DNA of 64,000 nt from NCBI RefSeq assembly GCF_900117445.1, contig NZ_FPEJ01000001.1, positions 362,501 through 426,500 on the forward strand. Reading direction: 5' to 3'. The position numbers were made by a program, and so were the translations under genes. Under the pieces are notes generated by a model. That model searched no databases. It was not told the DNA's origin and saw only the letters and a list, made by a program, of their open reading frames with translations. Positions 13,408-21,729 of this stretch are shown piece after piece. Positions within the stretch are counted from its first letter, which is position 1; every line of letters begins with the position of its first letter. The DNA is from Hyphomicrobium sp. NDB2Meth4 (GTDB lineage: Bacteria; Pseudomonadota; Alphaproteobacteria; Rhizobiales; Hyphomicrobiaceae).

Positions 13408-13432
13408 GGAACCGCACCCCCCATCGGGCGTT
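13408..13432 (+). promoter_or_regulatory. EcfG-type general stress promoter of the lipoprotein gene
   Basis: Exact GGAAC (13408-13412), 16-base spacer, CGTT (13429-13432). This is the consensus bound by the EcfG/SigT extracytoplasmic sigma factor that runs the alphaproteobacterial general stress response. The gene start is only 19 bases beyond, fitting a short leader. Confidence 0.7.
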
Positions 13433-13450: not shown

Positions 13451-13750
13451 ATGGGCTTCCCGATGACCGACCACCGCAAATCTAGGCCAAGGGCCTCAAT
13501 CGTGTTGATCGCCGCGGCCCTGGCATCGCTCGCGCTCGGCGGGTGTCAGTCACCGATGTATTCCGGGACGCCCGACGATATGAGCGGCTCCGTCGCCCCC
13601 GCCTATTCGCCGGACACCTACGAGCCACCCGCCAAGGTAGGCCGGGCTGACCAGGACGAGACCGAGCAGCAAGTTCCGCAGGACGACACCAAATATGTCT
13701 ACCGCGGCGGTCGCGATCCCATCACCGGCAAGGCCGAAAAGCAGATGTGA
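13451..13750 (+). CDS. small lipoprotein, unknown function
   Basis: A 99-residue protein with a lipoprotein signal peptide: basic start, hydrophobic stretch, lipobox LGGC near residue 32. The mature part is short, polar and proline-rich (YEPPAKVGRADQDETEQQ, then YVYRGGRDPITGKAEKQM), with no recognised domain. It should sit in the outer or inner membrane facing the periplasm. A second ATG four codons in (13463) is an equally possible start. The exact EcfG-type promoter just upstream suggests induction under general stress. Confidence 0.75.
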   Translation: MGFPMTDHRKSRPRASIVLIAAALASLALGGCQSPMYSGTPDDMSGSVAPAYSPDTYEPPAKVGRADQDETEQQVPQDDTKYVYRGGRDPITGKAEKQM

Positions 13751-15553: not shown

Positions 15554-16150
15554 TTAGGCTGCAGCATCTCGCTGCAGCTTGGTATCGCCATCAAGCGGGC
15601 GCGTCTCACGGCGCGCCAGCCGTACCGCCGCATCCCGTTCTATAGATTCGAGTATAGCCAGCGAGGCGAGCGGCCGGCTCGCTTCGATGGCGCGAGCAAG
15701 TGCCATTAATGCGCCGAACGTCACCACGCCTGCCAGCGCAATGGCGTATTCCCAGTTCTGCCGCGCGCTCTCGAAATCTTCTGACGCTACTGTCCATGCG
15801 CCGGTCAAGGCACCCATCGGCACTGCAATCGACCAGAAAATGACTTGCGCCACGGAAAGCGCGCAAGCCGCCACTATGGACCAGACGAACGCACGCGCAT
15901 TGCCGCGCACCAAGAACGCGTGCACCAGCACGCCGCCCAGAGCGAGCAGCCCCAGCACTCCCACAACCAGCATCGAACGATCGAGCTGCTGCACGACGAA
16001 ATAGTCGTTCGGTTGCATTTGCAGGCGCGACTGCAGCGTCAGCAGATGTCCCAGAACTGGCGTCAACGCCAGCGCGAGCAGGGCTATGGCAACCAGCTGC
16101 ACGGCATCGAGCAGATGCCAGCGGTACCGTGTCAAACGTCGATGCGCCAT
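15554..16150 (-). CDS. integral membrane protein, unknown function
   Basis: A 198-residue protein with four hydrophobic segments: about residues 15-38, 58-80, 86-112 and 135-155, then a charged cytoplasmic tail. The loop between segments 3 and 4 (WTVASEDFESARQNWEYAIA) faintly recalls the DUF1772 (anthrone-oxygenase-like) family, but I am not confident. A near-consensus EcfG promoter lies about 45 bases upstream on its strand, so it may belong to the stress regulon along with the divergent NepR-like gene. Confidence 0.65.
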   Translation of the reverse strand: MAHRRLTRYRWHLLDAVQLVAIALLALALTPVLGHLLTLQSRLQMQPNDYFVVQQLDRSMLVVGVLGLLALGGVLVHAFLVRGNARAFVWSIVAACALSVAQVIFWSIAVPMGALTGAWTVASEDFESARQNWEYAIALAGVVTFGALMALARAIEASRPLASLAILESIERDAAVRLARRETRPLDGDTKLQRDAAA

Positions 16151-16196: not shown

Positions 16197-16222
16197 AACT
16201 CGACAGCGACTGACTTAGTTCC
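16197..16222 (-). promoter_or_regulatory. possible EcfG-type promoter (imperfect) of the membrane protein gene
   Basis: On the minus strand GGAAC (16222-16218), a 17-base spacer and AGTT (16200-16197). It differs from GGAAC-N16/17-CGTT by one base of the -10 element. Its placement before the gene starting at 16150, and back to back with the exact promoter at 16275, makes it worth noting. Confidence 0.35.
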
Positions 16223-16274: not shown

Positions 16275-16299
16275 GGAACGGGAAGGCTTGCTCGCCGTT
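16275..16299 (+). promoter_or_regulatory. EcfG-type general stress promoter of the NepR-like gene
   Basis: Exact GGAAC (16275-16279), 16-base spacer, CGTT (16296-16299), 56 bases before the start codon at 16356. This matches the consensus of the alphaproteobacterial general stress sigma factor. Confidence 0.75.
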
Positions 16300-16355
16300 A
16301 GCGGCTCGATCCGCCGAGACCACCGGCGCAAACCAAAGCCGAGGAGGCACAAGCA

Positions 16356-16586
16356 ATGGTCGACGGCTTTCATTGGACGCGCGTTACATCCAAGCAGTTG
16401 CGCTTCCTTTACGAAACAGTAACCCTCAACCCGGTTCCCGAGCAGATGTACGCGCTCGCAGCAAAAGTCGACCGCAAGCTTGCACCCGCACGCGACGCTT
16501 CGATTTCGTCTACTGGGATTCTTTCAGGCGACCACGCTGCCGCTGCGGAGCAAGATGCGCTGATTTCGCCGAGGCCCCGCGAATAG
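16356..16586 (+). CDS. NepR-like anti-sigma factor (candidate)
   Basis: A 76-residue protein with a strong ribosome site (GAGGAGG, 16341-16347). Residues about 12-42 (KQLRFLYETVTLNPVPEQM) fit the two-helix core of NepR, where QLR..Y..V...PVP followed by L..KLD is the conserved pattern. NepR binds and silences the stress sigma factor EcfG and is itself captured by PhyR upon stress. The tail after residue 43 is not conserved. The exact EcfG-type promoter upstream and the lone receiver protein downstream both support a role in the general stress circuit. No ecfG or phyR gene is in this window, so this may be a second, accessory NepR. The call rests on motif reading only. Confidence 0.65.
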   Translation: MVDGFHWTRVTSKQLRFLYETVTLNPVPEQMYALAAKVDRKLAPARDASISSTGILSGDHAAAAEQDALISPRPRE

Positions 16587-16603
16587 TTGTTTTTGTGCAG
16601 TGC

Positions 16604-16628
16604 GGAACCACCGCCACTGCACGGCGTT
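16604..16628 (+). promoter_or_regulatory. EcfG-type general stress promoter of the response regulator
   Basis: Exact GGAAC (16604-16608), 16-base spacer, CGTT (16625-16628), 21 bases before the ATG at 16650 and its AAGGAG ribosome site. It is the second exact copy within 350 bases. Confidence 0.75.
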
Positions 16629-16649
16629 CTTCAACCAAAGGAGAACGTC

Positions 16650-17066
16650 ATGAGCACCGTGATGATCTGCGAGGACGACGCCATCCTCGCCGCCGACTTG
16701 GCCCTCACTATCGAAGAAAACGGGCACCGCGTATCGGGCATCTACGCCAACGGGCGCGACGCACTCAAATCCGTCGAGTACCAAATTCCCGACGTCGCCT
16801 TCATCGACCTCGAGCTTAACGATGGGCACACCGGGGCTGGCATTGCCCAGGAGCTGCAGGCGATGGGCGTCAGGGTCATCGTTCTGTCCGGCTACCCGAA
16901 CGTCGGCGTCGGCTTGGGCAACGTTCCTCACACCTACGCTGCCAAGCCGATGAGCAGCGACCTCGTCGAATTTCTGTTGCGCACGCCGAGCGCGCGCCGG
17001 GAAGCTGCGAGGAAGGCAGAGGCCGCTCTCCCCAACTGCCGTAACGTGAGTGGCATGATGCAGTGA
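16650..17066 (+). CDS. single-domain response regulator (receiver only)
   Basis: A 139-residue protein that is a receiver domain and little else: acidic pocket EDD at residues 7-9, phosphorylated aspartate in AFIDLEL near residue 53, and the conserved lysine in YAAKPMS near residue 104. There is no output domain, so it should act by protein contact or as a phosphate sink, like the SdrG-type regulators of the general stress response. Start chosen at MSTVMICEDD because AAGGAG lies 5 bases upstream. Preceded by the NepR-like gene and its own exact EcfG-type promoter. Ends 9 bases from the convergent MFS gene. Confidence 0.88.
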   Translation: MSTVMICEDDAILAADLALTIEENGHRVSGIYANGRDALKSVEYQIPDVAFIDLELNDGHTGAGIAQELQAMGVRVIVLSGYPNVGVGLGNVPHTYAAKPMSSDLVEFLLRTPSARREAARKAEAALPNCRNVSGMMQ

Positions 17067-20457: not shown

Positions 20458-21729
20458 ATGCAGTTAGACGGCCCACGCGCTTCGCTGCCTACGACAGCCG
20501 CCGGTGCCGCTCAGGCGCTCGCTGCCTGTGCTGATCCCGCTTGGATCATCGATCCTGCCAAGGGCCGCGTGCTTGCCGCCAACCCCGCAGGAGCCGCGCG
20601 CCTGGGACTTCATCCCGACGCCGCCTCCGGCACGCTCGACGCAGCCATGCCCGGACTCGTACGTCTTCGCGCCATGGTGCGGGAGTCTTTGGCCGATGGT
20701 CGACGCGAACCCCTCGTCTTCTGGACCGCATACGGAGCTGAAAACCTCGTTTGCGACGTTGCGAGCCTCCCCGAAGCGGCCAACACGCCCGATCTGGTGC
20801 TCGTCAGCCTGGCTTCGGGCGCGCGCAGGCGCCTTTTGCCGGCGCCAGCCGGAACTTCCGCGCCAGCTCTCCCGCCGCCGGTCACGCCAACGCCCGACGA
20901 CGCCGCGACCATGACCAGGATCGCCGCGGCCATCCGCAACGGCTTTTCCGCCGGCCGTAGCACCGATGAAGCGCCTCCCGACGCCGACCTCGAAGGCGAT
21001 GCTTCGACCCGCGACCCTCGTTCAGCCCAGGTGTCCAAGCTCGCCCACGAATTGCGCACGCCCTTGAGCGCCATAGCGGTGGCAGCAGAAATTATGAAGG
21101 ACCAGCGCTTCGGTCCCATCGAGAACGAGCGCTACCTCACCTACACGTCTGATATCCACGATAATGCCCGCCACGCACTGGCGCTGATCGAGCGCCTCCT
21201 CGGCGACAAATCCGCCGACGATGCGGAATCCGCGGGAAATGCCACCGAGCTCGACCTCAATGTCCTCGCGGAGGCGTCTGTCTCTGCTCTGAAGCCGCTT
21301 GCCGACGAAGCTGGCCTCAACCTCGTCTGCGAATTCCACCGCGAGCTGCCTCAAGTCAAAGCTGACGGCACCACCATCAAGCAGATCCTCTTCAACCTCA
21401 TCTCCAACGCCATCAAGTTCACGCCGCGCGGTGGAGATGTGCGTGTCGTCACCGGCCTCGGCTTTGACAGATCAGTCTTCATCGCTGTCCAGGACACTGG
21501 CGTCGGCATGACGAACGAGGCGATTACCACTGCTCTCAACGCAGAAGTCCCCGCTCATCCTCAACGCAAGGAAGCAGGCGGACACGGCATTGGGTTGCCG
21601 CTGGCGCGCGATCTTGCCAAGTCGAATGGCGCTCGACTGGAAATCGACAGCCAACGAGGTGAAGGCACGGCCGTAGCACTCGTCTTTCCACGCGACAGAG
21701 TCGCCGCACGTGCTCCTGTTTCAAATTAG
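20458..21729 (+). CDS. PAS-domain sensor histidine kinase (cytoplasmic)
   Basis: A 423-residue kinase with no transmembrane segment. Residues about 15-110 form a PAS-like sensor (ADPAWIIDPAKGRVLAANPAG), followed by a proline-rich linker, the HisKA phospho-acceptor HELRTPLSAIAVAAEIM near residue 197, and the ATPase domain (NLISNAIKFT, DTGVGM, GGHGIGLPLARDLAKSNG). The phospho-acceptor segment with FGPIENERYLTY is of the PleC/DivJ-like type common in alphaproteobacteria. No cognate regulator is adjacent. Its stop codon overlaps the iron box described at 21726. Confidence 0.9.
   Translation: MQLDGPRASLPTTAAGAAQALAACADPAWIIDPAKGRVLAANPAGAARLGLHPDAASGTLDAAMPGLVRLRAMVRESLADGRREPLVFWTAYGAENLVCDVASLPEAANTPDLVLVSLASGARRRLLPAPAGTSAPALPPPVTPTPDDAATMTRIAAAIRNGFSAGRSTDEAPPDADLEGDASTRDPRSAQVSKLAHELRTPLSAIAVAAEIMKDQRFGPIENERYLTYTSDIHDNARHALALIERLLGDKSADDAESAGNATELDLNVLAEASVSALKPLADEAGLNLVCEFHRELPQVKADGTTIKQILFNLISNAIKFTPRGGDVRVVTGLGFDRSVFIAVQDTGVGMTNEAITTALNAEVPAHPQRKEAGGHGIGLPLARDLAKSNGARLEIDSQRGEGTAVALVFPRDRVAARAPVSN

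Follow-up and report, generated by a model that had tools for sequence, protein, structure and literature searches.

A NepR-like gene paired with a lone receiver gene behind EcfG-type promoter-like sites in Hyphomicrobium: a possible accessory branch of the general stress response

We analysed a 64,000-nucleotide stretch of the genome of Hyphomicrobium sp. NDB2Meth4 (the window), in which two small genes follow each other on the plus strand, each of them preceded by an exact GGAAC-N16-CGTT sequence. The first encodes a 76-residue NepR-like protein and the second a single-domain receiver; together they are referred to below as the cassette. Both genes and both sites lie where an earlier note had placed them, and the strong ribosome sites it described (GAGGAGG for the NepR-like gene, AAAGGAG for the receiver) are present as well, which confirms the observation. 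These ribosome sites are purine-rich, and a weaker one was seen by eye at the NepR-like gene of the sister species (genome G001). The island proved to be bigger than first reported, since conserved sites also precede two further genes, one membrane-protein-like and divergent from the cassette, the other lipoprotein-like and upstream of it. The features are as follows (G002 is a further genome of the same genus).

13408..13432, plus strand: EcfG-type promoter-like site of the lipoprotein-like gene, exact GGAAC-N16-CGTT (N17 in G001 and G002)
13463..13750, plus strand: small lipoprotein-like gene, lipobox recognised by eye; the open reading frame opens at 13451 and the start was set at 13463
15554..16150, minus strand: membrane-protein-like gene (hydrophobic by eye), 198 aa, divergent from the cassette
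16197..16222, minus strand: EcfG-type site of the divergent membrane-protein-like gene, GGAAC-N17-AGTT, 72 bp upstream (CGTT in G001 and G002)
16275..16299, plus strand: EcfG-type promoter-like site of the NepR-like gene, exact GGAAC-N16-CGTT, 81 bp upstream of the ATG
16356..16586, plus strand: NepR-like gene (open reading frame), 76 aa, core KQLRFLYETVTLNPVPEQM, with GAGGAGG upstream
16604..16628, plus strand: EcfG-type promoter-like site of the receiver gene, exact GGAAC-N16-CGTT, 46 bp upstream of the ATG
16650..17066, plus strand: single-domain receiver protein, 138 aa, with AAAGGAG upstream; the start ATG at 16650 is conserved in two relatives

The frequency of the motif, which had been regarded as striking, turned out to be unremarkable. 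With spacers of N15-18 the window contains 5 matches against 1.91 expected, and at least 5 were reached in 6 of 100 shuffles. Over the whole genome (N16-17, both strands) there is no enrichment, with 70 matches versus 81 for the reversed control pattern. One of the matches in the window, at 13408, is a third exact N16 site that had been overlooked. Since the bare motif count is weak, the case for the sites rests instead on their position and conservation.

Close relatives of the receiver were found in 8 of 102 family genomes, namely the window's own, G001, G002 and five genomes of genus g14 (36-41% identity; none was found in a sixth, G084), and in all eight carriers the gene is preceded by GGAAC-N16/17-NGTT. 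In the sister species both genes of the cassette are kept, each with GGAAC-N17-CGTT upstream (76 bp 5' of the ATG in the case of the NepR-like gene), and in G002 the EcfG-type site upstream of the receiver is conserved. In the five g14 genomes a GGAAC-N16-NGTT site lies 58-62 bp upstream of the receiver, ending in CGTT once and in TGTT and GGTT twice each. A scan of the syntenic stretches revealed the two further conserved sites, those of the divergent membrane-protein-like gene and the lipoprotein-like gene. When 150-bp upstream intervals were inspected, a site was present at 11 of 11 test starts (the lipoprotein-like, membrane-protein-like and receiver genes in three species each, the NepR-like gene in two) and at none of 12 neighbouring control starts (mdoG, MFS, cytochrome-like, phasin-like and kinase genes); for the relatives, some of the gene starts are estimates based on the ends of tblastn matches. 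The chance of a site per interval is approximately 0.003 in a first-order random model. The membrane-protein-like and lipoprotein-like genes entered the test set after their sites had been seen, so a fair independent test is provided by the NepR-like gene of G001 and by the receiver of G001, G002 and g14. A relaxed form of the pattern (GGAA[CT], N15-18, NGTT, within about 250 bp) was also present upstream of other receivers, in 13 of 26 rows (with one locus entered twice), and a relaxed site alone is therefore not diagnostic. Judging from their conserved sites, the membrane-protein-like gene, for which no family was found above cut-off, probably belongs to the same regulon as the cassette, and the lipoprotein-like gene (no Pfam family at E <= 0.01) is probably under EcfG control.

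The claim that the 76-residue protein matches NepR held in part. The protein has no match to the Pfam NepR family (PF18557) at E <= 1, against 6e-10 for the canonical NepR of the same genome, and searches of NCBIfam and of the PDB (E <= 10) gave no match either. The earlier note had named the lack of a NepR profile match as refuting; this lack holds for Pfam, whereas purpose-built profiles did recover the relationship. A profile of 28 family NepRs together with the canonical NepR of this genome (cores were taken from 28 of 30 loci; L035 and L050 were dropped) scored the protein at 11.8 bits and its G001 orthologue at 14.4, the best of 2000 shuffles reaching 5.0. In the opposite direction, a profile made from the 76-residue protein and its G001 orthologue (A2) gave 18 non-self matches at E <= 0.01 in 397 genomes of the order. 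With E-values between 4.8e-5 and 0.0098 per genome these matches are weak, and across 397 genomes a few as good would be expected by chance. Nevertheless, 13 of them are nepR genes whose stretch also includes phyR, one being the canonical nepR of this genome; four are NepR-like genes without phyR in the stretch (L085, L086, L092 and L100) and one (L094) is unrelated. A nepR gene was thus picked too often for chance, which argues for NepR kinship, and the absence of any A2 match from 378 of the 397 genomes indicates that this kinship is distant. The profile search outperformed a BLAST-type search with the 76 residues alone, which in 103 family genomes found G001 strongly and gave 8 weak matches (E 0.006-0.1), two of which (G010 and G048) coincide with NepR matches.

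Residues L15, R16, Y19 and M31 of the protein align to L32, R33, Y36 and M48 of Sphingomonas melonis NepR, which have been named as PhyR contacts (PMC6599016). This gap-free placement relies on a comparison by eye with the numbered 2lfw NepR sequence; the profile alignment is also gap-free over residues 13-34. According to the same study, function depended on the L and Y/F positions but not on R or, in NepR2, on M (PMC6599016). The predicted structure, a low-confidence model (pLDDT 62.9), has helices at 12-24 and 29-42 around a PVP sequence, followed by disorder; it thus contains two helices around a V-P turn together with the L/R/Y contact residues. The second helix looks degenerate, with LAAKVD in place of the LLxxL of NepR. 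Comparison with G001 revealed 11 synonymous and no other changes in codons 1-20, and a dN of 0.23 with a dS of 2.28 over codons 1-45, a codon pattern indicating that the gene is under selection. Considering the profile kinship, the contact residues and the selection, yet also the missing Pfam match, we file the protein as NepR-like and not as NepR proper.

The second gene of the cassette encodes a receiver (Pfam Response_reg, 1.2e-08) and nothing of the sigma-like N-terminal half of PhyR, as the earlier note had stated. Its best NCBIfam matches are PRK13435-type receivers, under their cut-offs. In an alignment of the eight orthologues the receiver pocket is intact (E8/D9/D10, D53, S80, Y96, K99), with an aromatic residue kept three positions before the lysine. 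The structural model has a pLDDT of 81.9 and a very short fourth helix (86-89, local pLDDT about 64). By both sequence and fold, the solved structures ranking top for this protein are PhyR receivers; one of them, 2n9u, is the PhyR receiver domain of Erythrobacter litoralis and not SdrG. The protein nevertheless differs from PhyR, not only in lacking the sigma-like half. A tree was built from 59 receivers selected among the collected loci; its deep nodes are weakly supported, and a number of long branches come together in it. Here the eight orthologues cluster by themselves (97/94), separate from both the 22 PhyR receivers (100/100) and a nine-row group containing all six FATG-type rows (98/95). 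Membership of the FATGUY receivers was considered and rejected: the protein has VRVIVLSGYP instead of PFxFATG[G/Y] and lies outside the FATG-containing group of the tree. Other receivers with the FATG motif are present in the genus. No kinase adjoins the receiver gene, whose neighbours are the membrane-protein-like gene and an MFS transporter; a kinase in the neighbourhood, at 20458, is HisKA and not HWE.

A search for the canonical locus, which the earlier note had proposed, revealed a complete module elsewhere in this 4.08 Mb genome. Contig C16 encodes an HWE kinase with PAS domains, phyR, ecfG and nepR, with GGAAC-N16-CGTT upstream of phyR and GGAAC-N17-CGTT upstream of nepR-ecfG. The cassette lies on contig C13, and the NepR-like gene is therefore not encoded with ecfG or phyR. 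By similarity there is one EcfG only; the three other sigma matches (E <= 1e-5) are 25-30% identical. A second EcfG that might have the NepR-like protein as its dedicated anti-sigma factor was also considered, and none was found, the other three sigma matches being 25-30% identical. At locus L002 (8961-9135) two divergent EcfG-type sites are located beside the canonical module, near Crp-like regulator and PRC-barrel-like genes (named by eye).

The two genes of the cassette do not always occur together. Of the 8 genomes of the genus, 3 contain the receiver (the window's own, G001 and G002), 2 the NepR-like gene and 3 the membrane-protein-like gene. No NepR-like open reading frame was found within about 1.5 kb of the receiver in G002 and the five g14 genomes. 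G002 has the same flanks, with approximately 290 bp between the starts of the membrane-protein-like and receiver genes (about 500 bp in the window) and no NepR-like open reading frame between them. Since G002 and g14 have the receiver and its site without a NepR-like open reading frame, the receiver with its site is the more widespread, separable part. Of the four order-level receivers that group with the orthologues (L105, L106, L113 and L114), three lack any site within 250 bp, and the fourth has one, of the GGTT form, at 246 bp. A scan of genome contigs returned two loci, that of G002 and one distant receiver.

Alphaproteobacteria have one stress switch in common and different ways of damping it. 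The NepR-like protein resembles NepR2 of S. melonis Fr1, which binds PhyR and represses the response (PMC6599016), in being a small NepR-like protein of the EcfG regulon (here predicted from the sites) and in being recognisable by a few core residues, not by database search, with the L, R, Y/F and M positions kept (PMC6599016). The genetic context is different: nepR2 of S. melonis adjoins ecfG (PMC6599016), whereas the gene in the window stands on another contig, beside a lone receiver. Another NepR homologue with an EcfG-type promoter is META2p0735 of Methylobacterium extorquens, which is EcfG-controlled, stress-induced and binds PhyR, and whose overexpression represses the response and sensitises cells to stress (PMC4814048); unlike in the window, the passages of that study dealing with META2p0735 report no lone-receiver partner for it. 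In Sphingopyxis granuli TFA a second NepR gene (nepR2) also follows a putative GGAAC-N16-CGTT promoter, but there it forms an operon with ecfG1 (PMC7083833).

For the receiver, a possible parallel is offered by LovR of Caulobacter crescentus, a single-domain receiver controlled by the stress sigma factor SigT, which acts on the stress phosphorelay and together with LovK constitutes a phosphate sink, while MrrA serves as a relay (PMC5964349). LovR is encoded with the HisKA2 kinase LovK (PMC5964349), whereas no kinase is adjacent to the receiver of the window, and the likeness considered here is one of description. The FATGUY receivers SdrG and MrrA are single-domain receivers of the same stress response (PMC5964349). 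Their motif PFxFATG[G/Y] (PMC5964349) is absent here, a comparison made with FATG-type receivers from the fetched loci and not with the SdrG and MrrA sequences. EcfG-controlled NepR paralogues and stress-controlled single-domain receivers have thus each already been published (PMC6599016, PMC4814048, PMC5964349); the new part is the pairing of a NepR-like gene with a lone receiver. A literature check, limited and thin on subscription papers, found no other cassette of this kind.

Our preferred explanation, to which we assign a probability of about 0.5, is that the cassette is an accessory, EcfG-driven feedback branch of the general stress response. In this view EcfG, once freed by the canonical PhyR-NepR-EcfG switch on the other contig, would transcribe the NepR-like and receiver genes, each from its own promoter; as no terminator-like element was found between the genes, transcription from the first promoter may also continue into the receiver gene. 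The NepR-like protein would most likely bind phosphorylated PhyR via its first helix. With PhyR held in this manner, NepR would be released, EcfG recaptured and the response damped. By analogy, such titration of PhyR, as proposed for S. melonis NepR2 and META2p0735, is the most likely role of the protein, and the suggestion in the earlier note that the extra NepR provides negative feedback has these published precedents (PMC6599016, PMC4814048). The receiver, having no output domain, would most likely draw phosphate from those HWE/HisKA2 kinases that supply PhyR, and would so alter the amount of phosphate reaching PhyR; the absence of the FATG motif gives a slight lean towards a sink. The accessory branch proposed earlier is partly supported: a NepR-like gene and a sigma-less receiver gene do each stand behind an EcfG-type promoter-like site, but G002 and the five g14 genomes indicate that they are not a fixed pair.

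Several points speak against this explanation. The Pfam NepR family is unmatched, the motif is not enriched genome-wide, the A2 E-values are weak, the second helix is degenerate and the model of low confidence; moreover, the receiver lies outside the PhyR and FATG groups, its order-level relatives are mostly siteless, and the kinase at 20458 is of the HisKA type. The NepR paralogue META1p2700 of M. extorquens, whose promoter is putatively of the EcfG type, failed to pull down PhyR (PMC4814048), and the EcfG-dependent induction of S. melonis nepR2 was slightly under the cut-off of the study (PMC6599016).

The alternatives are not mutually exclusive, and their odds need not sum to one. It is possible, though somewhat unlikely, that the two genes are ordinary, separate members of the EcfG regulon, neighbours by chance that act neither on each other nor on the core switch. 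This would fit both the relatives that have the receiver without a NepR-like open reading frame within about 1.5 kb (G002 and the five g14 genomes) and the sites of the adjacent membrane-protein-like and lipoprotein-like genes, but the kin of both cassette genes, NepR and PhyR-type receivers, are parts of the core switch. We consider it unlikely that the NepR-like protein acts as a further genuine anti-sigma factor that binds and buffers EcfG directly. Its kinship to NepR in both profile searches and the finding that both NepRs of Sinorhizobium meliloti, RsiA1 and RsiA2, bind the sigma factor (PMC4814048) would allow such a role; the degenerate second helix and the missing Pfam match do not favour it, META2p0735 made no contact with any EcfG sigma (PMC4814048), and the test of S. 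melonis NepR2 with EcfG was inconclusive because the proteins were unstable, the authors considering that there is perhaps no complex (PMC6599016).

Equally doubtful is a role of the receiver as a positive phosphorelay hub like SdrG or MrrA, relaying phosphate from several kinases towards PhyR, and not as a sink. Relay is a possible function of single-domain receivers in the stress response (PMC5964349) and the residues E8/D9/D10, D53, S80 and K99 are intact, yet the protein has VIVLSGYP where a hub of this type would have PFxFATG[G/Y], it retains the aromatic residue three before the lysine, it falls outside the nine-row group with the six FATG-type rows (98/95), and FATG-bearing receivers are found elsewhere in the genus. 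A second partner switch without a sigma mimic, in which the phosphorylated lone receiver itself controls the NepR-like protein, is very unlikely; if true, kinases could turn the EcfG-driven feedback on or off. The idea that the promoter-like sites are accidental and that the small open reading frame does not constitute a gene can draw on the lack of genome-wide enrichment and on the shuffles (6 of 100) that reach the window count, but it is extremely improbable in the face of sites in 11 of 11 test and 0 of 12 control intervals and of 20 codons with synonymous changes only.

On the preferred explanation, that of an accessory feedback branch, a probable brake and a stand-alone receiver would be combined in one probably stress-induced island apart from the core genes. 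The relatives that have the receiver with or without the brake provide a natural test of the role of each part.

Other lone receivers were encountered among the collected loci. Those of genus g10 (L061, L066 and L074) constitute a different lone-receiver group, in which a GGAAC-type CGTT site precedes the match by 104-115 bp, and in two genomes (G044 and G046) a g10-type lone receiver is located approximately 5-6 kb from nepR. A possible second pairing was seen at L086 (genome G364), where, judged by eye, a NepR-like open reading frame lies about 0.2 kb downstream of a receiver-like one and on the same strand. That strand of the stretch showed no GGAAC-N16/17-NGTT site. Finally, in G001 a 51-residue hydrophobic open reading frame is located downstream of the receiver (L012, 2324-2479) and is preceded by an extra GGAAC-N16-CGTT site (L148, at 8365), while the window instead has the MFS gene directly downstream.
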